A stretch of DNA of 64,000 nucleotides from Zanthoxylum bungeanum (lineage: Eukaryota > Streptophyta > Magnoliopsida > Sapindales > Rutaceae), in contig SKCR01026822.1 in the NCBI GenBank assembly GCA_019454045.1, forward strand, positions 23,227-87,226, written 5' to 3'. Position 1 is the stretch's first letter, and each line of letters opens with the position of its first letter. Under the pieces are notes generated by a model that made no database searches, had not been told where the DNA came from, and was given only the letters and a program-made list of their open reading frames with translations. Below, piece after piece: positions 12,563-59,703 of this stretch. Made by a program: the position numbers and the translations under genes.

Positions 12563-14370
12563 CGCAAGCGCACGTATCGTTCAAGTAGTATAAAAATATC
12601 GATCCCACGAGGACTTAATTCCTACTGTTGTTATTAATTGTTGATACTATTTATTTACAAATATCTAATAAGATGATTGATTGATTTGAAAGGATGATGA
12701 TTCTAAAAACAAGTAAAAGAAATTGAAAGAAGATTAATGAAGATTAAAACTATATAGGGTTGTGAATTCTTCCAATATTAATTAAAAGATGAAGTAGTTA
12801 TATCATAGTTGGGTAAATTATTGAATTATTAATCTGGAACACTAAATTATGTAAAAGCCTCTTCTGAATGATCATTTACAAATACCTAGTATAATCCAAT
12901 TGAACCATATGTCTATGTCAATTAAATTACCTAGATTCATTAAGATTGAGTTCCAATTATGACTACCCCCGCCCAACAGGTATATTCCTATCCTGTAAGG
13001 AAATCTATTAAAAGGGTTATCTATCCTTAAGGAAGATCGTGGGTTATTGAGTCTGTGGTATTTAACTTAAAATCCCTATGTCTAGTTCATTTTAAGTTTA
13101 TCTAAATCAATTTTATTAATGGCCAATTAATAAAAATGCATTAAGATTATGACTCAATAAATAACTCTTTTAAATTACTCAAACTATAATCTAACCCTTT
13201 TAAAACCGGTTATATTAGATTTTATCACAACCCTAGATATTTAATTTAGTTACAATACATAGCTAAAACTAATAAAAACTTAAAAGACATAAAATGAAAT
13301 TGCTGAAAAGTAATAAAAAGAAATGGTAAGGTAAAAGGAATTAACTTCTACTATTCACTATTTAGATATCTCCCATAAAATAATATATAATCTTGTGATA
13401 TTTTAAACCAATCGTCCAGAATGGCGGTATCCTGATTAAGTCAAATTCAAATATACCAGCCATAAGGCGGAACAGAAATATAAACTTAAACCAACCGTCC
13501 AGTATGGCGGTATCCTCATTAAGTCAGGTTTAACCAGATTAAATTTAATAACCAACCGTCCGAAAATGGCGGTATCCTTTATTAATTCAGATTTTAAATA
13601 GTTTATATATTATTTTTTAAGGGAGATTAATCTAAAAAGCAAAAGTAAAAGAATTACCTTATTACCTCAGCATTGTGAGGTTACTCCCTCATGGTTGAAT
13701 AGAATTACTACTACAAAGCGTAAATAAAACTGAATATATGAAGAAAATATGAAGAACTCTCTATTATATAAGTATTTACAGAGGATTTGGTACATTTGAA
13801 ACTAAAAATTCGAAATCTATTTATAGGCAAAAAAAAATCTAATTTTTTATTATTATTTTCTGATTTTTATTATTTTATTATTATTTTTTTTTTTGGATCG
13901 CTGAATTTTCGACACGTGGCATGGTGTGCTAAAAAAGATGGCTCGTTGAATTTTTGACACGTGGCATGGTGGTGCAATTACCAAAATACCCTCGGTGTCG
14001 GGACGCTCAAAATTACCAAAATACCCTCGGTGTCGGGACGCTCAAAATTACCAAAATACCCTTTTCGTCAAATTTCACAGTTTTGCTCCAAATCACCTCC
14101 AGAATATCTTGAAACTTTATTTCGGTGTCGGGATGTCCAAAATTACCAAAATACCCTTTGTGTCGGGACGCCCAAAAATTACCAAAATACCCTTTTTGCC
14201 AAATTTCACCAAATTTCACAGTTTTGCTCCAAATCACCTCCAGAATGTCCTGAAATTTTATTTATCTGCAAAATAACACAAAACACATCAAAATATTCAC
14301 AAAACTCAAGAAACTATACAAAATATTAAGTTAAATGAGTGGGAAATAGTGATAGTTTTACCACTCATCA
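12563..14370 (-). repeat. 3' LTR of element E
   Basis: It ends (+ view) ...TTTTACCACTCATCA, i.e. it begins TGATGAGTGG in element sense. It lacks the last 26 bp of the 5' LTR copy (19060-19085), because the junction with element B at 12560 is deleted. It contains extra copies of a unit with gtgtcgggacgc...aattaccaaaatac at 13980-14180 relative to the 5' LTR, which accounts for the 78-bp size difference. Confidence 0.85.
13409..13578 (-). repeat. Four ACCGCC/GGACGGT hairpin-type units in the E LTR
   Basis: Units at about 13409-13433, 13456-13470, 13489-13515 and 13550-13578 read, in element sense, ATACCGCCATACTGGACGGTT with variants. Each could fold into a short stem (ACCGCC with GGACGGT). The same four lie in the 5' LTR at 19929-20099, and four related units with 36-37 bp spacing are in G (55448-55585). 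Confidence 0.65.
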
Positions 14371-14382
14371 CACCCCCAAACC
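14371..14382 (-). other. Polypurine tract of E
   Basis: In element sense ggtttgggggtg lies directly before the TGATGAG start of the 3' LTR. The same tract, one base shorter, follows the 5' LTR at 20816-20826, where it belongs to the second, truncated internal copy. Confidence 0.8.
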
Positions 14383-15520
14383 TAACATTTTGCTAGTCCT
14401 CGAGCAAAATAAAATAACGTAATAAAAATTTAACTAAGCCACTTTCGTATGGATCACGATTGCATTTAGCATATACAACAAGCCTTTAAACCCCTAGGTG
14501 TCCCTAGTGGACGAGTTGTAGTCTCGTGAAGGTTTACAGCAATGATACCCACAAACATTTTATAAAAGTAAAAAGGTAGTGAAACTAATGCACACAAAAG
14601 CAAAAAGACAAGAGAAATAAGAAGTTAGTGACTAATCATGTGAAACTTCTACTCCAAGTTATTAGTTGTTTTGTTTCATTCTAAATTACTAAATAAGTAA
14701 ATTCTCCGATTATTTTTACCATTCTTCATATACACAGCCAACAAAATATTAAACAACTCATTTTTGCCCACAACGGTCATAAGTGCAGTTGATAAGAGAG
14801 TAATATTTTTGTCCTAAAGTTCTATCAGATTTCACACCTGTTGTAGCAATGGAATAATTTTTCTGATTTTTCTGATTTTTTCTTTGATTTTTCATTTTTC
14901 AATTTTTTATTTATATACAATATCTTCCATCTATGTAGCGAGCTTAGGTTGGTGACTCCCAAACCAGTTGGCTTTAGGGCATCAGGTGTTAGACACCCCT
15001 ACGGACTTAATTACTCAGACTTCAGATATATATACATATATATAAAATTTTCATCATTTTTGATCCATGTAGCGAGCTTTGGGCCAATGACTCCCAAACC
15101 AGTTCGTTTTAGGGCATTAGGTATTAAAATACCCTTACAGACTTAATAACTCGGATCTCAGACATTTTTTTTATTCCATTACTTTTTTTTGAGATGCTTC
15201 TCCAATTAAACTATAGCACTGAATATTACAATCTTTTCAATTTTATCCTATGTCCGTATGTTACCATGTATGTTGATAATATCTACCAACTAAGTATATG
15301 AAGATTCATTTTAGTCAGTTTTATGGAGAATTTACATATTTAATAATTCAAAAGTGAATAAACAAAAATTAACTTGTTTTGAATTAGGTTTGAAATACGT
15401 CTCAGGAGTGGAAATTCCTTACACAGCTATTTCTTACCAATTTCATCTTTTTAGTCAACATAACAACCACATATTTCTACTAGTCATAAAACTATAATTT
15501 ACATGTTTTTTTTTTTAAAA

Positions 15521-15919
15521 GGCTCTCGCTGACAAAGGATTGTTCACAACTAGGACTCCCCACTCAAGGGTTCAAGCGACCAAGTGAACGCACTTTTTTT
15601 ATACCTTATGGTACGTGCCAACGAATTTATGATGTGTGACTAACTGTCGAATGGACTTCCCGTTGTAGATTCCCCAGAGGGAAGGTGGAGCGAGGCTCAC
15701 TTAAATACCCAAGCCCCTTAGGCTCTTATCGCTTGTTGTCAGGAATAAACAACGAGTCCTCCAAACTAGTCTGTCACAACACGCTACAAGTGAATGATTA
15801 TCTAGGTGCCTCCACAGCTTTTCCTTATAAAAAGGTAGTGAGTGAAGGAAAACACCAAACCATTACCTAGCTTTAAATATGCCCTTTGTTTTTATTAATT
15901 TTTTAATTTTTTTTTCAAA
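15521..15919 (+). repeat. SINE-like unit, copy 1
   Basis: This 399-bp unit begins ggctctcgctgacaaagg and ends in a T-rich tail (about 15880-15915). It contains gggttcaagcgacc (near 15570), resembling a pol III B box, about 35 bp after a weak A-box-like ctgacaaaggat. Copy 2 follows directly, and a third, diverged copy lies in element F on the opposite strand (23020-23388). T-rich tails occur in some plant SINEs such as p-SINE1. The SINE identity is tentative. Confidence 0.4.
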
Positions 15920-16315
15920 GGCTCTAGCTGACGAAGGATTTTTCACAACTAGGACTCCCCACTCAAGGGTTCAAGCGACCAAGTGAACGCACCTTTTTTA
16001 TACCTTATGGTACGTGCCAATGAATTTATGGTGTGTGACTAACTGTCGAATGGACTTCCCGTTGTAGATTCCCCAGAGGGAAGGTGGAGCGAGGCTCACT
16101 TAAATACCCAAACCCCTTAGGCTCTTATCGCTTGTTGTCAGGAATAAACAACGAGTCCTCCAAACTAGTCTGTCACAACACGCTACAAGTGAATGATTAT
16201 CTAGGTGCCTCCACAGCTTTTCCTTATAAAAAGGTAGTGAGTGAAGGAAGACACCAACCATCACCTAGCTTTAAATATGCCCTTTGTTTTTATTAATTTT
16301 TAAATTTTTTTTTTT
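15920..16315 (+). repeat. SINE-like unit, copy 2 (tandem)
   Basis: This is nearly identical to the preceding unit. Differences include ggctctagctgacgaagg at the start and a longer T run at the end. The high identity and direct adjacency indicate a recent tandem duplication inside element E rather than two separate insertions. The frame MERGSLKYPNPLGSY inside it is not considered coding. Confidence 0.5.
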
Positions 16316-16480
16316 AATTTTTCCAAAAAATTTTGGACTAAAAATAAAAACACAATACAAACAAGTACTATTAACTATTCCTCACCCTCAAACCTAAATG
16401 AGACATTGTCCCCAATGTCTTAAACAGTAGAAGAAGAGTTTAGAAGATAGTACCTAGTTGGCTGAATTACTATAAGCAAA

Positions 16481-17158
16481 TTAATGGTTAAGATCCAGAT
16501 TAACACGACGCCTCTTACCACGATCATCATCAGAACATTTTATCTTTGAAATGATAGGGTCAACTTGTGGTTCATAGGCTACGAGTTGGTCAAGTAGATC
16601 TGGAGCAGTTCTGGCAGTAAAGAGGAGGTCTTTCATAGGTTTTGATACGAACCCATTTCTCCGAGCATCATCAAGAAACACACAAAGAAAATCATAAAAT
16701 CCATCAACGTTGAGCAGTCCAAGCGGTTTCTGGTGGATGTTCAGGTTCGCCCAAGATAGTACTACAAAAATTTCCTCCAATGTGCCCAAGCCACCTGGCA
16801 AAGCAATAAAAGCATCAGAACGGTTAATCATTTCTACCAGTCGTTCAGACATACCTGGCACGATCAGTTCCTCTCCGTTTGATGATCCAATAAGATTTGC
16901 CTCTGCCAAGGGTTTTGGGATGATTCCCAAAACATGACTGCCTCCTTCTTGTACGGCCTTTGAAACGATCCCCATTAGTCCAAGATTGCCTCCGCCATAT
17001 ATTAAGTGCATATTCCTTGCAGCTAAGACTCGACCCAATTCATGTGCTGCTTCTATGTATTGTGGTTTAGTACCAACAGTACTACCGCAAAACACACAGA
17101 TGTTCTCAACTCGTCTTCTTGAAGTGGCTTCCATTTTTTTTACTATGGATGTCTTCAA
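16481..17158 (-). CDS. LOG-family cytokinin riboside 5'-monophosphate phosphoribohydrolase, intronless, within element E
   Basis: The 225-codon frame is open and uninterrupted. LOG enzymes release free cytokinin base from its riboside monophosphate in the cytosol or nucleus. Seen here: the nucleotide-binding start ICVFCGSTVG (20-29), YGGGNLGLMG (54-63), arginine 106 in the position of the conserved R, and the family signature PGGxGTxxE as PGGLGTLEE (121-129), followed by KPLGLLNVDGFY (144-155). Leu at the variable signature position and the lack of the usual RKAxM motif suggest a non-canonical LOG subgroup. The tail is basic (GKRRR, 214-218) then VNLDLNH. Met1 or Met9 could be the start; length fits the family (about 210-230). 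Plant LOG genes normally have several introns; this copy has none, lies on the same strand as element E between its LTRs, and has an acceptor-like cccttttcag just upstream (ending at 17189). It is inferred to be a cDNA-derived captured gene. Whether it is expressed is not known. Confidence 0.88.
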   Translation of the reverse strand: MKTSIVKKMEATSRRRVENICVFCGSTVGTKPQYIEAAHELGRVLAARNMHLIYGGGNLGLMGIVSKAVQEGGSHVLGIIPKPLAEANLIGSSNGEELIVPGMSERLVEMINRSDAFIALPGGLGTLEEIFVVLSWANLNIHQKPLGLLNVDGFYDFLCVFLDDARRNGFVSKPMKDLLFTARTAPDLLDQLVAYEPQVDPIISKIKCSDDDRGKRRRVNLDLNH

Positions 17159-17907
17159 AAGTGCAATGATGAATTGAATTTATAATACCTGAAAAGGGTG
17201 AGTAAAATAATAGCACAAGTATCTTCCAAAGGAAGCTTGTTAGCTAAACAAAACAAAAGAAATCGTGAAAGGTCAAAAAGTCTGGATCTTGTCTACGAAA
17301 ATAAAGATAATTTCAACAGAAAAGTGAATCAAAGCAATGATTAAGGCAATAGAATTGTGTATGCAATACGGCACTCGCTTAGTATAAATTCATTAGGATG
17401 CGTCTCGAAAATTCATTCTTTACTCAGCCATCCCTAATGAATTATCTCTTTTCTTTGCCAAACACCTCTCCTTCTGTCTTAAAATGCTTTGTTTGAGCTT
17501 TTCCCCTACAAAAATAACACACAAAATTAAAAATATTCTACAACATGTATACATAAAATATAAAAAACAGAAATTACAATAAATTGCATGGGTTGCCTCC
17601 ATGCTAGCGCTAAATTTTTCGTCTTCAGCCAGACGTGACTGAAATCTATCTATCAATGAGGTTTTAGCGTCATTTTGGATGTCCGATTAAAGAAAATTCA
17701 ATGAGCGTTGCTTTTGAAAGGTCTCTTCCAACGGTAAAGTGACAAAAAGAGTTTTGTCTCATTCAGTGCTTGTGCCACCTTTTTAATCTTTGTTGCTCCA
17801 GTGGTTCCTGAAAAGAAAGAAAGAAAATCAGGAGGTCTTGTATGGTGCTTGACTTGGAATGGAAGTTTCATTCTGTCAAACTTCTGTGTGATATCTTTAA
17901 ATTGTAC
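17159..17907 (-). other. Post-pol region of E between the gag-like frame and the LOG ORF
   Basis: No reverse transcriptase, protease or integrase motif is seen. In element sense the stretch reads through tttaccgttggaagagacc and caagcaacgctcattg-like sequence. It then reaches ttagcgctagcatggaggcaacccatg (17582-17612 in + coordinates), similar to the ggaggcaaccca motif seen after pol in plant Gypsy elements. The whole pol gene has evidently been lost. A 78-codon frame (17656-17420) covering this motif is not regarded as a gene. A splice-acceptor-like sequence ends at 17189. Confidence 0.55.
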
Positions 17908-18887
17908 TCACCAAAACAGCGATGTTTTTCCTGAATGTTCTGGATCTTTGATAAGTTCAGACATTTGCTCCTCCATTTGCTCTGTTTCTTGCTCCACCTT
18001 TTCTTCACAGATGAATTTCAAAATTTCCTCGTTCAGTTCTTCATCTGTCATCTGTGAAATACATGCTTCAAAATTGTCAACCTGAGGATGAAAAGAAATG
18101 TCAGATTGTAGGTCTTCATCCTCTGATTTGGGTGAAATGATTGGCTCAGGTAGATCTTCTTCAAACATCATGGTAAAGCATGCTCCAAGATCTTTATTCT
18201 GAGGATGGAAAGTTTCATCCTTCCTTGTTGGTGCAGTTGGTACAAAAAACTCAGTTTCTTCATCCTCGTCAGAATAATAAAAATCAAATTGAGACTTTGT
18301 TGGTGCAGGCTCCTGAACTGATACCTCTGATTCTTGATACTGCTCAGCCTCATCCTCTGTTATGATGTCATGATGAATCTCAGGATATTGAAAGGCTTCT
18401 TCAGTAGTATTTGAATTTGCTCCGTGAGATATGTGATTCAGGTTCTCTGTTAATTGTCTAACTTGATCTGTCATTCTTTGTATATATGCTGCTTGACTCT
18501 GAATTTGTGCTTCAAATAGAGCTTCCCGTTCCTCGAACAAATCTTTGAGCATGTCATTCAACTGATCTTCCTCTGATGGATCTGGTTCTTGATGAATATC
18601 GTAGGTAGATGGTGGATAAGATGGAAAATGTGATGATTCTTCGTACCTTGTATGATTCCAATAATTCTGCCACTCTGAAAGGTATATACATTGATCGCTC
18701 GGGTGGTTGCCATCACAATTACACATCTCCCCATTTCATTATGTTGAGCAAATGTAGTGTTGTTTGGTTCTGGCTTCCAGTGATAGTTGTTGGGCTTGAC
18801 AACAGGCCTCAGAAAACTATACTGTTGCTCCTGGATTTGGGGTGTATCTTCTTCTAGTAAAGCTTGTAATTTTTCAAAATGTTCCAT
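17908..18887 (-). pseudogene. gag-like frame of element E, frameshifted in the zinc knuckle
   Basis: It starts MEHFEKLQALLEEDTPQIQE (18887) and corresponds to the G-element frame at 56548. After about 55 codons a one-base loss near 18705-18730 shifts the frame inside the zinc knuckle. The knuckle reads CDICNGNHPRDHC in G, but here its second half (CDGNHPSDQC) is in the next frame, which stays open from 18726 to 17908 (272 codons). That second part is rich in Glu/Asp/Gln with a coiled-coil-like stretch (EEREALFEAQIQSQAAY). It resembles the N-terminal, non-capsid frames found in large non-autonomous LTR elements. Confidence 0.65.
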
Positions 18888-19035
18888 TTTTTTTAATCAC
18901 CGGAAAACAAAAGAAAGAAATAAAAATTACAGATAATAATAAAGAAAATTAGATATAAAATTACAGATAATAATAAAGAAAATTAGATATAAGTAAATTA
19001 GACAGCTTCAAAATTAATAACTCAAGAAAAATAAG

Positions 19036-19053
19036 TCCCCGACAACGACGCCA
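19036..19053 (-). other. Primer-binding site of E (tRNA-Asp type)
   Basis: In element sense TGGCGTCGTTGTCGGGGA, two bases from TGGCGCCGTTGCCGGGGA, the complement of a plant tRNA-Asp 3' end and the usual Athila-type primer site. It lies 6 bp inside the 5' LTR end. The intact form is present in element G at 56447. Confidence 0.8.
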
Positions 19054-19059
19054 AAAACT

Positions 19060-20815
19060 TGACCGGCGTAAACACACACGTATAATGCAAGCGCACGTAT
19101 CGTTCAAGTAGTATAAAAATATCGATCCCACGAGGACTTAATTCCTACTGTTGTTATTAATTGTTGATACTATTTATTTACAAATATCTAATAAGATGAT
19201 TGATTGATTTGAAAGGATGATGATTCTAAAAACAAGTAAAAGAAATTGAAAGAAGATTAATGAAGATTAAAACTATATAGGGTTGTGAATTCTTCCAATA
19301 TTAATTAAAAGATGAAGTAGTTATATCATAGTTGGGTAAATTATTGAATTATTAATCTGGAACACTAAATTATGTAAAAGCCTCTTCTGAATGATCATTT
19401 ACAAATACCTAGTATAATCCAATTGAACCATATGTCTATGTCAATTAAATTACCTAGATTCATTAAGATTGAGTTCCAATTATGACTACCCCCGCCCAAC
19501 AGGTATATTCCTATCCTGTAAGGAAATCTATTAAAAGGGTTATCTATCCTTAAGGAAGATCGTGGGTTATTGAGTCTGTGGTATTTAACTTAAAATCCCT
19601 ATGTCTAGTTCATTTTAAGTTTATCTAAATCAATTTTATTAATGGCCAATTAATAAAAATGCATTAAGATTATGACTCAATAATAACTCTTTTAAATTAC
19701 TCAAACTATAATCTAACCCTTTTAAAACCGGTTATATTAGATTTTATCACAACCCTAGATATTTAATTTAGTTACAATACATAGCTAAAACTAATAAAAA
19801 CTTAAAAGACATAAAATGAAATTGCTGAAAAGTAATAAAAGAAATGGTAAGGTAAAATGAATTAACTTCTACTATTCACTATTTAGATATCTCCCATAAA
19901 ATAATATATAATCTTGTGATATTTTAAACCAACCGTCCAGAATGGCGGTATCCTGATTAAGTCAAATTCAAATATACCAGCCATAAGGCGGAACAGAAAT
20001 ATAAACTTAAACCAACCGTCCAGTATGGCGGTATCCTCATTAAGTCAGGTTTAACCAGATTAAATTTAATAACCAACCGTCCGAAAATGGCGGTATCCTT
20101 TATTAATTCAGATTTTAAATAGTTTATATATTATTTTTTAAGGGAGATTAATCTAAAATGCAAAAGTAAAAGAATTACCTTATTACCTCAGCATTGTGAG
20201 GTTACTCCCTCATGGTTGAATAGAATTACTACTATAAAGCGTAAATAAAACTGAATATATGAAGAAAATATGAAGAACTCTCTATTATATAAGTATTTAC
20301 AGAGGATTTGGTACATTTGAAACTAAAAATTCGAAATCTATTTATAGGCAAAAAAAAATCTAATTTTTTATTATTATTTTCTGATTTTTATTATTTTATT
20401 ATTTTATTATTATTTTTTTTGGATCGCTGAATTTTCGACACGTGGCATGGTGTGCTAAAAAAGATGGCTCGTTGAATTTTTGACACGTGGCATGGTGGTG
20501 CAATTACCAAAATACCCTCGGTGTCGGGACGCCCAAAATTACCAAAATACCCTTTTCGTCAAATTTCACAGTTTTGCTCCAAATCACCTCCAGAATATCT
20601 TGAAACTTTATTTCGGTGTCGGGATGTCCAAAATTACCAAAATACCCTTTTTGCCAAATTTCACAGTTTTGCTCCAAATCACCTCCAGAATGTCCTGAAA
20701 TTTTATTTATCTGCAAAATAACACAAAACACATCAAAATATTCACAAAACTCAAGAAACTATACAAAATATTAAGTTAAATGAGTGGGAAATAGTGATAG
20801 TTTTACCACTCATCA
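19060..20815 (-). repeat. 5' LTR of element E
   Basis: In + view it runs TGACCGGCG...CTCATCA (1756 bp). It pairs with 12563-14370 and is related to the G LTR at 54369-56440. It contains the hairpin-type units (19929-20099), a TATA box (20338-20347) and two G-box/ABRE motifs (20437-20446, 20481-20491). Confidence 0.85.
20338..20491 (-). promoter_or_regulatory. LTR promoter of E: TATA box with two GCCACGTGTC motifs
   Basis: In element sense two copies of GCCACGTGTC (20481-20491 and 20437-20446) lie about 90-150 bp upstream of ctataaatag (20338-20347). CACGTG is the G-box core and ACGTGTC matches ABA-responsive elements. Transcription from here would run through gag into the LOG ORF. The same set exists in the 3' LTR (13911-13920, 13955-13965, TATA 13817-13826). 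Confidence 0.6.
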
Positions 20816-21251
20816 CACCCCAAACCTAACATTTTGCTAGTCCTCGAGCAAAATAAAATAACGTAATAAAAATTTAACTAAGCCACTTTCGTATGGATCA
20901 CGATTGCATTTAGCATATACAACAAGCCTTTAAACCCCTAGGTGTCCCTAGTGGACGAGTTGTAGTCTCGTGAAAGTTTACAGCAATGATACCCACAAAC
21001 ATTTTATAAAAGTAAAAAGGTAGTGAAACTAATGCACACAAAAGCAAAAAGACAAGAGAAATAAAGAAGTTAGTGACTAATCATGTGAAACTTCTACTCC
21101 AAGTTATTAGTTGTTTTGTTTCATTCTAAATTACTAAATAAGTAAATTCTCCGATTATTTTTACCATTCTTCATATACACAGCCAACAAAATATTAAACA
21201 ACTCATTTTTGCCCACAACAGTCATAAGTGCAGTTGATAAGAGAGTAATAT
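20816..21251 (-). mobile_element. Second, truncated internal copy of element E
   Basis: These 436 bp repeat 14371-14806 almost base for base (polypurine tract and adjacent 3' untranslated region). They are then cut at taatatt, where element F's truncated LTR begins. An internal 3' end on the outer side of a 5' LTR is expected only in a tandem concatemer formed by LTR-LTR recombination. Confidence 0.75.
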
Positions 21252-22909
21252 TCCAACTCCACGTACCACTTGAGTAAACGGCGCGTATTTCATTTTATGT
21301 TGTTTTAATGTGTTTATTATTCATTATTTAATTTGTACATGTTATTCGTTTGCGTAGTGATGTGATCGGGCGCATGGGCTTAGTAAGTTGGATTAAAGGT
21401 CCCCTATTTTGAAGGGTTAAAACCCTTTACCACGATGCTTTGCCGCGCCGGTTGATGTATATTTGGTTGAATGTAAGATGTGTTCAATCAGGTATACGAA
21501 GTCCGATATTGTTTCTTTTATTTCTTATAAGTATTGTGAGATAAAGCGCATGGGCTTAGTAAGTGCGATTAAAGGTCCTCTATTTTAAGAGGTTTAAATC
21601 TTTTACCACGATGCTTTTCTACGCCGGATGATGTATATTCGATTGGATGTGAGATATGTTCAATCAGATATATGAAGTCTGATATCATTGTCTTCACTTT
21701 TTTTTACATGTATTGTGTTGTTTGCGCATGAGCTTAGTAAGTGCGATTAACGGTCCTCTATTTTGAGAGGTTAAAATCCTTTACCACGATGCTTTGCCTC
21801 GCCTTTTAGCCCGTTATTATTTATTAGGTGTCATCTAGTCATCCGTTCACGTAAGTGTCATGTTGTTTACTGCATTTTGGGGGTCACTGGTGTAACCCCG
21901 TTCAAACACGTTTCAGAACGCCGCACGAACGCATGTTTTCTGTCTCAGTTCGTTCGAAAGCATTATCAAACGCTATACGAACGCGAACCTTCTGTTTACC
22001 GTTCAAATGCATTTTCGAACGCTACTCAAACGCCCATGCATTTTTCCTTATCATGCATCAGGTCTCATTTCCGTTCGAACGTGTTTCTGAACGCCCTACG
22101 AACATGAGCATTCTGTTTCTTTTCCGTTCGAACATGTTTACGAACGCTACTCGAATGCGAACCTTCTGTTTACCATTCGAACGTGGATACGAACGCCGCA
22201 CGAACGCCCACGGTAAACAGGCCCTCTTTCATCATATCTCATGCATGGTTACTCATTTTGTCATTTGCCCTTTTTTTTATTGTTCATGTTCTCGTTTAAC
22301 CATTTATTGTGTGCACAAGATTACATGTTCGTTCCCATGATGTATGTTTACACGGTAGCCATCTACTTATGCTTCCGCATTCATCCATTCAACATGTTCA
22401 TGAAGTTATATGCTCGCCATTATTCCGATTTGCTTTCATGCGTGATTGTACAATTGTTATCTACTGGCATGCCTATGATGGAATGTAATTTGCTTATAAC
22501 ATTGTATGCTAGCCATATTTATCTTTATGCATGCAAATTCAGATATAGATTATATGCAAATAGGTTGTATGCAAACTTAAAAATGTGTTATATGTGAACT
22601 TAGATGGATTTTTTGATGTATGCATGCGAACTTAGGAGTAAATCATCCTTGGAAATATGTTGCTTAGGCTTGGTTAGATTATTGCACAAATCATTTTATT
22701 ACAAATGGCATAAGTAAGGGACCATTCCGAACCCAACGGTTTGAGGTCTTCCCTTGCGAGGGGTGAGTGAGGCCTTAAATCTTTGTCCCGGTTCACACCG
22801 GGTGGCGACTCTATCATTCTCCGGTTTAGTCCCTTGCGAGCTACTCCGTACTCCCAACCGGGCCGCGTGCCCGGGACAGAATGCGTCGCCCAGTTCCTGT
22901 GTCCCCACA
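21252..22909 (+). repeat. 5' LTR of F, lacking its first 1.35 kb
   Basis: It aligns with 28471-30126 of the 3' LTR. It contains three tandem units with gcatgggcttagtaag and ggtcctctattttgag (21370-21800), the TTCGAACG-type array (21893-22215) and the conserved end ...ttcctgtgtccccaca. The left border is an abrupt join to element E. Confidence 0.82.
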
Positions 22910-23900: not shown

Positions 23901-24015
23901 TGAAGATTATAATGAATTGATATATTCCTTGTATCGCATGCATCTCATTCATCTCATACATACATCCTGTTAACACCCTCCATGTCTAAAAGATATCATA
24001 GAGTCCCGTTGGGTT

Positions 24016-25068
24016 ATGGAAGAAGGAAGACTCACTAAAAGGCCGGTAACAGATATGAGTACATCCGATAACGAGGTATCCCGGATATATCAGTTGGAAA
24101 ATGGTTTCGCCAAGATTACCGAACAGTTGCAAGCCTTGACTACTGCCATGGAAAATATGGTTGTGCCCCGTGCTGGGGTAAATTCTGAGAATGTGAGGTG
24201 TGAGGAGCCTCTGAATGGGTTGGGGGATGATATCCCCGCTTTTGATGATGATATGGCTGAATATGCCACGGGAAGAATAGCTGGGTCTCAGGCCGAGATA
24301 CAGAAACTCTGTGATCAGATGGAGTCAGTTACCAGTAAACTGAAAGGGAAACATGAGGACTTGTTGGATTATGAGGCGTTGACCTTCGAAGAACAGCTGC
24401 CAGCTCAGTTCAAAATGCCTGATATGGCTAAGTTCAACGGGAATGGGGACCCGAGGGTCCATCTGCGGCAATATGTCTCAGTGATGAGTTCAGTGGGCCT
24501 ATCACAGCGCCAAGTCACAGACCTAGAGATTGACTTGTCGCTCCGCGACTTGGAGAACACCAAGCAGAAGCCAGAAGAAAGTTTCAAGGAGTATGTAGAC
24601 CGCTGGAGAAGCCAGCTTCTGAAAATGCAGACTCGGCCCTCTGAGAAGGACCAGATTAAAATGATCATCAAGGGCACTAAACCCTCGATCTATGGTAAGT
24701 TGAGGAGAATGACCTCCATGATTGCAGATTTTCGACAGTTGAGGGAAACTGTCATGGATATAGAGGAAGAAGAGGCTGAAAACAGAAAGTTTTATGGCCA
24801 GAATAGAAGAACTTTTGGGGGGCCTTCTGAGACCAAGCCCGCTACTACCGAGGTTGCTACCGTCAAGAACAGGCGAATCTCTAATCTTGGTAGACCTTTG
24901 TCAAAGGTGCTTGAAAAGTTGAAGGGACAAGGGCTCTTAAAACCCTTAGAGCCTAAACCACTTCCAGATCCTATACCACCCAACCTTGACCTAAGCCTGT
25001 ATTGTCACTTCCATCAGAGGAGAGGCCATGAAACTGACAGTTGCACCCGCCTTAGGCATGAAATCTAA
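24016..25068 (+). CDS. Gag polyprotein of element F (Ogre/Tat-like), internally deleted
   Basis: This 350-codon frame starts MEEGRLTKRP. A coiled-coil-prone N-terminus (20-115) precedes the capsid start FKMPDMAKFNGNGDPRVHL (132-150). The usual middle of the retrotransposon gag domain, with its tryptophan-containing segment, is missing: VGLSQ joins directly to the late segment SLRDLENTKQKPEESFKEYV (175-194). The C-terminus has a CX2HX4HX4C knuckle (C330, H333, H338, C343) followed by LRHEI. The stop after LRHEI is a TAA where CAA (Gln) is expected, and the frame continues openly to 25266, so the end is probably a nonsense mutation. Gag would form particles with helper-supplied enzymes. The deletion makes this copy doubtful as a functional protein. 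Confidence 0.75.
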   Translation: MEEGRLTKRPVTDMSTSDNEVSRIYQLENGFAKITEQLQALTTAMENMVVPRAGVNSENVRCEEPLNGLGDDIPAFDDDMAEYATGRIAGSQAEIQKLCDQMESVTSKLKGKHEDLLDYEALTFEEQLPAQFKMPDMAKFNGNGDPRVHLRQYVSVMSSVGLSQRQVTDLEIDLSLRDLENTKQKPEESFKEYVDRWRSQLLKMQTRPSEKDQIKMIIKGTKPSIYGKLRRMTSMIADFRQLRETVMDIEEEEAENRKFYGQNRRTFGGPSETKPATTEVATVKNRRISNLGRPLSKVLEKLKGQGLLKPLEPKPLPDPIPPNLDLSLYCHFHQRRGHETDSCTRLRHEI

Positions 25069-56547: not shown

Positions 56548-56940
56548 ATGGAACATTATTGGGAGATTGAGAGATCACGATCTTTACTAGAAGATACACC
56601 CCAAATCTGGGAGCAACAGTCCGGTTTTCTGAGGCCTGTTGTCCAGCTCAACAACTATCACTGGATGCCAGAACCAAGCAATACCACATTTGCTCAACAA
56701 GATGCAATGGGGAGATGTGACATATGTAATGGTAACCACCCGAGAGATCATTGTGAGTACAACTACAATCCAGGGTGGCAGAGCTATCAAAATCCTTCAT
56801 GGTATGAAGAACCATCATACTTTCCATCTTATCCACCACCCACCTTCGATTTCCATCAACAATCAGAACCATCAGAGGAAGATCAGATGATTGACATGCT
56901 CAAAGATAAAACCAGTGCCAGTGATAAGCATATATTGTGA
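56548..56940 (+). pseudogene. gag-like frame of G, truncated
   Basis: It starts MEHYWEIERS, is close to the frame in E, and has the zinc knuckle C57, C60, H64, C69 (CX2CX3HX4C). An aromatic and proline-rich stretch follows (YNPGWQSYQNPSWYEEPSYF). The homology with E ends after DMLKD (codon 120); the last codons come from the fused Copia sequence in another frame, and the stop follows at once. Confidence 0.7.
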
Positions 56941-59248: not shown

Positions 59249-59680
59249 TTAATCATCCCCATATGCACGAAAACTGTAACGTTCTTGGTATGGACCATTG
59301 AAGAAGAGGTCAGCTTCAAACCATTTGGGATAACGAACAAGGTCTCCAGCCAGAAATCTCATGTAGCGCTGGCTCCCTTCAGGCACAACTCTTACCTCTC
59401 CTTCCTCAATGTAAACTAACTGGTCTACCTGCCAGTCCCAGGGCAACTTGCACTTGCCAGTCTTCCACATTGACCATCTTGAAACACTAAGCTCCTTCAG
59501 TCGTTCGGGTGACACTTGTCGTTCCACCCTCACATTGTATAATTCCTCGAGAGGTTTCTCTACCCGCATTGCCTTTATACCAGGAGATTGCACATTCCTA
59601 TTACTTAATTTTCTGGAGTCTCTGCTGGTTTTCTTGACAGAGAAGAAACTCAATGTTGGGGCAGTAATCACACTTGCCAT
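59249..59680 (-). CDS. Plastid-targeted RmlC-like cupin protein (DUF861/EutQ-like)
   Basis: A complete 143-residue protein in a single coding exon. Residues 1-36 are Ser/Thr/Lys/Arg-rich with few acids (MASVITAPTLSFFSVKK...), as in chloroplast transit peptides. Residues 40-143 form a small cupin barrel: ELYNVRVERQVSPERL, WSMWKTGKCKLPWDW (69-83), VDQLVYIEEGEVRVVPEGS, FLAGDLVRYPKWFEADLFF. The glycine turns of cupin motifs 1 and 2 are present, but the histidines that normally bind metal are not, as is usual in this plant subfamily (recalled type: Arabidopsis At4g10300). The biochemical role of the family is poorly known. A 5' UTR intron is inferred at 59704-60594. The gene is divergent from the flavoprotein gene at 60968 and looks intact. 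Confidence 0.9.
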   Translation of the reverse strand: MASVITAPTLSFFSVKKTSRDSRKLSNRNVQSPGIKAMRVEKPLEELYNVRVERQVSPERLKELSVSRWSMWKTGKCKLPWDWQVDQLVYIEEGEVRVVPEGSQRYMRFLAGDLVRYPKWFEADLFFNGPYQERYSFRAYGDD

Positions 59681-59703
59681 GTCTCTAAGACAATGTTGGT
59701 CAC

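Follow-up and report, generated by a model that had tools for sequence, protein, structure and literature searches.

Does the intronless LOG-family gene found inside an LTR retrotransposon of Zanthoxylum bungeanum belong to the element that carries it, and what does its product do? The gene lies in a stretch of 64,000 nucleotides, called the window in the following, with direct repeats of ~2.2 kb on either side of it. The features of the window copy of the element are:

16481..17134, minus strand: LOG-family gene, 217 codons plus stop, intronless; the open frame reaches 17179
19060..20815, minus strand: 5' LTR (TGATGAG...GCCGGTCA), limits from other copies with target duplications
12563..14370, minus strand: 3' LTR, beginning at 14370 and ending ~26 bases short, limits from other copies
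19036..19053, minus strand: primer binding site TGGCGTCGTTGTCGGGGA (TGGCGCCGTTGCCGGGGA in other copies), from the sequence
14371..14382, minus strand: GGTTTGGGGGTG, candidate polypurine tract directly before the 3' LTR
17908..18735, minus strand: gag-like open frame, shorter than those of other copies, with no Pfam match above cut-off
15508..16313, minus strand: tandem pair (spacing 399 bases) on the 3' side of LOG, with matches at 15 of the 20 other loci
20816..21252, minus strand: 437 bases of element-internal 3' sequence outside the 5' LTR, a sign of rearranged insertion

The ORF listing gives the LOG frame as open on the minus strand from 17179 to 16481 (232 codons). Its first ATG, at 17134, yields a product of 217 residues ending at the stop at 16481, and this start ATG recurs in other element copies (KMEATSRR). 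The frame had first been placed at 16481..17158; it is real, but its end lay 24 bases too far, with no ATG in frame upstream of 17134. The description of an uninterrupted LOG-family frame with the motif PGGLGTLEE was borne out, as the motif was found and profile scores were far above chance. Thus, the protein matched Pfam PF03641 with an E value of 4.8e-35 and 121.1 bits (cut-off 27) and NCBIfam TIGR00730 with 163.5 bits (cut-off 96.35), which exceeds the curated profile cut-offs for the LOG/TIGR00730 Rossmann-fold proteins. It also matched the solved chains of At2g37210 (2a33, E 1.7e-59), which we take to be AtLOG3, and of At5g11950 (1ydh, E 9e-51), presumably AtLOG8. With the NCBIfam LOG equivalog NF058542 it scored 117.6 bits, below a cut-off of 300 that plant LOGs may not reach either; we counted this score against the view of a resident LOG enzyme gene.

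The LTRs, primer site and gag-like frame around LOG, and their strand, agree with the original prediction, and the LOG gene was confirmed to be intronless and to lie inside an LTR element. The LTR limits had to be revised. In other copies, the LTR runs from TGATGAG to GCCGGTCA, with GGTTTGGGGGTG before it and AGTTTT and TGGCGCCGTTGCCGGGGA after it; hence, the repeat previously read as LTR (12563-21251) consists of the LTR together with 437 bases from the internal 3' region. The primer binding site is presumably of the tRNA-Asp type. The gag-like frame is open over 275 residues in the window copy versus up to 485 in other copies. The internal bases outside the 5' LTR indicate that the window copy is rearranged, and a search for its target duplication revealed none. 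Alignment of the two repeat copies shows 10 mismatches in 2,160 aligned bases and 91 gap columns, a near identity that indicates a young copy; we give no insertion date because of the rearrangement. The tandem copies at 15508-16313 are 97% alike to each other, with no long frame listed there, and possibly represent a control or packaging region. Degenerate tandem units of ~175 bases are found at 21361-21880, beside the element breakpoint at 21252.

We determined how widespread this arrangement is in the assembly (3,956,113,105 bases in 51,709 contigs), using as signature 39 bases from the LOG active site with up to three mismatches allowed. The 3.96-Gb assembly contains 23,077 LOG signature sites (11,602 forward and 11,475 reverse), and the reversed-pattern control gave 0. 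In a protein search, the best 150 of 70,119 candidates were all full length with 94-100% identity, and 147 of these 150 had no stop, a share that is biased because the scored matches are the best of all candidates. At ~8 kb each, the short-type elements described below would occupy roughly 180 Mb, many copies being partial and both haplotypes maybe being assembled, and as a rough estimate the LOG element family may fill several percent of the genome.

In the 20 LOG-selected loci of 9.5 kb, an LTR of the LOG element always adjoins LOG, on both sides in 18 loci and on one side in L015 and L028, whose other side falls beyond the stretch read. L002, L003, L004, L006, L008 and L029 were left out of all counts, as they represent the same places as other loci. 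Eight copies have both outer ends readable, and exact 5-bp target duplications bracket the whole element in five of them (L010, L019, L023, L024 and L026); the duplication has one mismatch in L018 and is imperfect or offset by a base in L017 and L025. Thus, the other copies display LTRs with TG...CA, a primer site and a 5-bp target duplication, as expected of Ty3/gypsy elements. The suggestion that many copies of the element carry LOG is therefore upheld by the signature sites and the LTR context. Neither of the contrary outcomes originally envisaged, a frame present in no other copy or LOG inserted alone, was encountered.

Selecting copies by gag gave a complementary view. In a sample of 20 drawn from 141 gag-like matches, 15 have LOG at most 1.7 kb downstream. 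The other five have no LOG in the 1.7 kb read, which indicates that LOG is not universal or lies further away and was counted against a resident gene. LOG is intact in four of these 15 gag-selected copies and in two of 20 copies that were taken in contig order on the basis of an exact 39-mer match; that the majority of single copies are broken was also counted against that view.

The structural types of the LOG-selected loci were assigned by similarity to frames, complemented by Pfam scans for L012, L014, L015 and L028, with L027 typed by similarity only. RT, RNaseH and integrase are found upstream of LOG in two of the 20 loci (L015 and L028), gag and an integrase tail without RT in three (L012, L014 and L027) and a short gag-like frame in 15. 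Pfam identified RT, RNaseH and integrase in L015 and gag in L014 and L012, while the gag of L071 and the RT and integrase of L028 were recognised by similarity; a protease in the LOG elements had no Pfam match and was recognised by eye only. L015 and the neighbouring stretch L071, which contains gag and the 5' LTR, make up an element of ~12.3 kb with interrupted frames. The full-type copies therefore have gag, RT-RNaseH-integrase and then LOG, the order of Ty3/gypsy elements, which places LOG 3' of pol and contradicts the original idea that LOG had replaced pol. The window copy, which has no pol, represents a derivative that lost pol but retained LOG. Besides LOG, the short derivatives devoid of RT and integrase keep the LTRs and the primer site; the retention of LOG in them is odd if LOG acts in trans and was counted against a resident gene.

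A small frame of ~139 residues with several cysteines is present between the integrase sequence and LOG in L015 (5476-5892, minus strand). It was also found in L012, L014, L027 and L028, i.e. in five of five pol- or gag-bearing loci, had no match in the 15 short-type loci and could not be given a name.

According to PMC6317226, most OTA elements have extra frames, and an extra aRH domain marks Tat. Pfam scans of three L015 frames, which are interrupted, detected no additional RNase H family. Domain order and primer site suggest an Athila-like Ty3/gypsy lineage, of which LOG is most likely a resident accessory gene and not a fresh transduction.

We then looked for relatives of the element LOG. 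Among its 120 best homologues, many-membered clusters come from Xanthoceras (39), Reevesia (28) and Diplodiscus (13), along with several Populus proteins; a scan of viral contigs for relatives found none. An 87-row tree was built with 53 of the 120 homologues, 32 of 120 host LOGs, the query and one bacterial row. The branch that parts 54 retroelement-associated rows from the host LOGs has a support of 98 in one build and of 86 (not starred) when the three pocket columns are omitted, the retroelement context of rows beyond the window being partial, namely from print for Citrus and Populus and from one Xanthoceras protein. In that protein, P0008, two LOG pieces flank a stretch resembling the polyprotein frame of the element (36% over 44 residues, E 1.6e-5 in a set of seven proteins), a layout that suggests that LOG-bearing elements may be present in Xanthoceras.

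The host LOG gene L072 of the same assembly has a GT...AG intron that splits the PGG motif, whereas the element copy reads through at this point. This fits the capture of a spliced LOG transcript, as was first proposed. The element LOG is 38-46% identical to 13 host LOGs in one alignment. Constrained trees joining the element clade with LOG8 or with LOG1-like proteins scored 10.58 and 10.70 log units, respectively, above the quick free tree (p-AU 0.691 and 0.698, neither significantly different from it). As both score better, the quick free tree is not optimal, and this comparison does not separate a LOG8 from a LOG1-like donor.

What the element protein does was approached through its active site. 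The relevant section of PMC4979012 proposes Arg99 and Glu122 as the catalytic pair of CgLOG and Met96, His97, Lys100, Glu125 and Trp129 as the prenyl pocket. These pocket residues are said to be shared unchanged by AtLOG3, OsLOG and CpLOG, and Lys100 is assigned to the adenine site as well. In the same section, Ala changes of AMP-site residues, which it leaves unlisted, are reported to abolish most activity, S19A excepted, and the prenyl-pocket roles are derived from superposition, with no cytokinin complex (PMC4979012). In 58 element copies, Glu121, Glu122, Met96 and Trp129 are invariably present, Arg99 is found in 57 (the exception is a stop) and residue 19 is Ser in 55 and Thr in three. The element copies thus have the catalytic Arg and Glu and the PGGxGTxxE loop that characterize the LOG family. 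His97 is replaced by Ser (57 copies) or Pro (1), Lys100 by Leu (58) and Glu125 by Ile (54) or Val (4), and so three of the five proposed pocket residues expected of a cytokinin-activating LOG are replaced in 58 of 58 copies. The window protein has Ser96, Leu99 and Val124 at these three places in its own numbering.

In the 120 listed homologues, Lys100 and Glu125 are both kept in 12 and both absent in 108, and Glu122 is kept in 116 and Arg99 in 111, the latter figure being counted against a resident gene. The tree needs one change each for Lys100 and Glu125 and five for His97. Lys100 and Glu125 thus appear to have been lost together once in the retroelement-associated LOG clade, a single event on the tree that gives no statistical proof of coupling.

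The original prediction spoke of mobile cytokinin activation, in which the element LOG would be an ordinary phosphoribohydrolase of cytokinin riboside monophosphates and would increase active cytokinin at the sites of element expression. The multiplication of the gene stands, but the replaced pocket weakens the claim on activity. Family membership, the preserved Arg99 and Glu122 and the constraint on the protein described below speak for such an enzyme. In addition, residues are a weak guide to the product, since wheat LOGs sharing all known residues gave different product ratios (PMC11593424). However, the loss of His97, Lys100 and Glu125 from the pocket proposed in the section of PMC4979012 cited above, together with the conservation of MHQRK and the Glu in host gene L072, makes a plain cytokinin enzyme rather unlikely.

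As the element protein preserves the catalytic Arg and Glu, together with the PGGxGT loop that binds phosphate, and has an altered base/prenyl pocket, hydrolysis or binding of a nucleoside monophosphate is most likely maintained, with a changed preference. A more far-reaching reading, which we hold to be less likely than not, starts from an old retrotransposon-borne clade with members in Sapindales, Malvales and Malpighiales. This clade would have lost Lys100 and Glu125 in one episode, His97 having changed several times, and would have become a selected transposon nucleotide hydrolase with a different substrate. It would act on the nucleotide or signalling state of the host and be kept even without RT and integrase.

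Selection on LOG was measured by pairwise NG86 comparisons. The 43 LOG-selected copies have a dN of 0.0152, a dS of 0.1445 and a mean dN/dS of 0.105, bearing in mind that selection of copies by LOG understates dN; the corresponding values for LOG in the 15 gag-selected copies are 0.0473, 0.1880 and 0.252. For the window copy and 15 short-type copies, dN/dS is 0.100 for LOG versus 0.680 for the gag-like frame, whose change is inflated by frame breaks. The LOG value is the lower one in 113 of 113 pairs with both values, seven of the 120 pairs being dropped because one or both were missing. Silent divergence between copies reaches 0.12 to 0.19, with amino acid change per site 4- to 10-fold lower.

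We also analysed the variant spectrum of 35 copies chosen without regard to LOG likeness except for the 39-mer, the columns of which were excluded. The per-site ratio of nonsynonymous to synonymous variants is 0.735 for those found in one copy (six stops), 0.405 for those in two copies (five stops) and 0.232 for those in three or more (three stops). The pattern is one of constraint during multiplication of the element and free decay once inserted. The neutral decay across copies that the original prediction had allowed for did not materialize at the family level, though single copies are mostly decayed. Stops recur at LOG codons 8, 25, 64, 98 and 128 in L073-L092, codon 98 being the catalytic Arg. 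This suggests repeated mutation at the same codons, as expected if methylated CG sites mutate repeatedly.

The constraint on the short type might have been inherited from the full type by sequence exchange, the short type itself not requiring LOG. Consistent with this, the LOG of L010, a short-type copy, groups with those of L014, L015, L027 and L028 in a codon tree, against structural type. However, pol- or gag-bearing types represent only five of the 20 LOG-selected copies, and the short type alone shows low dN/dS; exchange is thus an unlikely source of the constraint.

Gene capture by LTR elements is known, and LOG could have been transduced a single time and then have travelled as a passenger with an element whose amplification had other causes. 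The decay of most copies agrees with this, as does the tandem repeat beside LOG. This repeat is non-coding, yet where present (15 of 20 loci) it is 96-99% alike from element to element, more so than the LTR; conservation in this region is therefore not all at the protein level. Nevertheless, the low amino acid change relative to silent divergence, the lower dN/dS of LOG than of the gag-like frame in every pair compared and the paucity of amino acid changes among shared relative to private variants make a passenger highly improbable. An independent host retrogene that landed by chance in one element, as its intronless frame might suggest, is refuted by the LTR context in 20 of 20 loci and the target duplications around whole elements.

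As to its origin, we infer that a spliced plant LOG transcript was taken up downstream of integrase, in place of the usual 3' extra frame. The LOG-bearing element then multiplied to >20,000 signature sites, and its short pol-less derivatives kept LOG, as seen in the 20 LOG-selected copies. The substitution patterns indicate that purifying selection held the protein during propagation and that single copies decay after insertion. The benefit to the element might come from a local change of the cytokinin or nucleotide state of the cell in which it replicates; for instance, cells could be kept dividing or a nucleotide signal could be altered.

Related systems have been described. Bs1 of maize, a low-copy element that contains a cellular fragment, similarly has host gene sequence in an LTR element and is not known to show comparable amplification. 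Steinbauerova 2011 reportedly described two Athila-like elements with similarity to LOGL4. The original prediction knew of no LOG example, but a YgdH/LOG domain was already in print for LTR elements of Citrus sinensis, Citrus clementina and Populus trichocarpa (PMC9289625, citing Steinbauerova 2011), the only paper from our literature search on LOG in retrotransposons that bore on the subject. Like the present element, these have a LOG-family domain within Gypsy-type LTR elements of rosids, and Populus proteins, which may or may not be those of the published elements, fall in the LOG clade of the window. The section of PMC9289625 concerned devotes two sentences to them, whereas for the present element we report 23,077 signature sites in one genome, a constraint that was measured, LOG kept by derivatives lacking pol, and an altered pocket. 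In Phalaenopsis, Gypsy elements with AlkB likewise have an enzyme gene fixed in their lineage; that RNA demethylase was tested in vitro (PMC9289625), whereas the function of the element LOG is predicted from sequence.

With plant LOG1-7 and LOG8, the element LOG shares the family, the catalytic Arg and Glu and the PGGxGTxxE loop; unlike them, it is intronless, lacks His97, Lys100 and Glu125 and has the limited identity to host LOGs given above. Thus, this kind of element is already known, and the copy number, measured constraint, pol-less retention and pocket change are new as far as the literature search shows.

Host genes taken up by plant LTR elements tend to be regarded as passengers; the captured enzyme gene described here shows element-level selection. 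This, and its persistence where pol is gone, make the role of the extra genes of plant Gypsy elements for the element itself a testable question. For annotation, a LOG label in a genome of this kind may belong to a transposon gene and need not imply cytokinin activation.

Elsewhere in the window, a 61-residue stretch at 56725-56907 (plus strand) is 61% identical to the gag-like frame and is probably the remnant of a second element. An open frame of 364 residues at 23974-25068 (plus strand) resembles, by eye, the gag of a different LTR element. A cupin gene at 59252-59701, whose top match is 88% identical, places the host plant probably in the Sapindales; its best named relatives are from Pistacia, Xanthoceras and Dipteronia, with Mangifera among the first nine matches.
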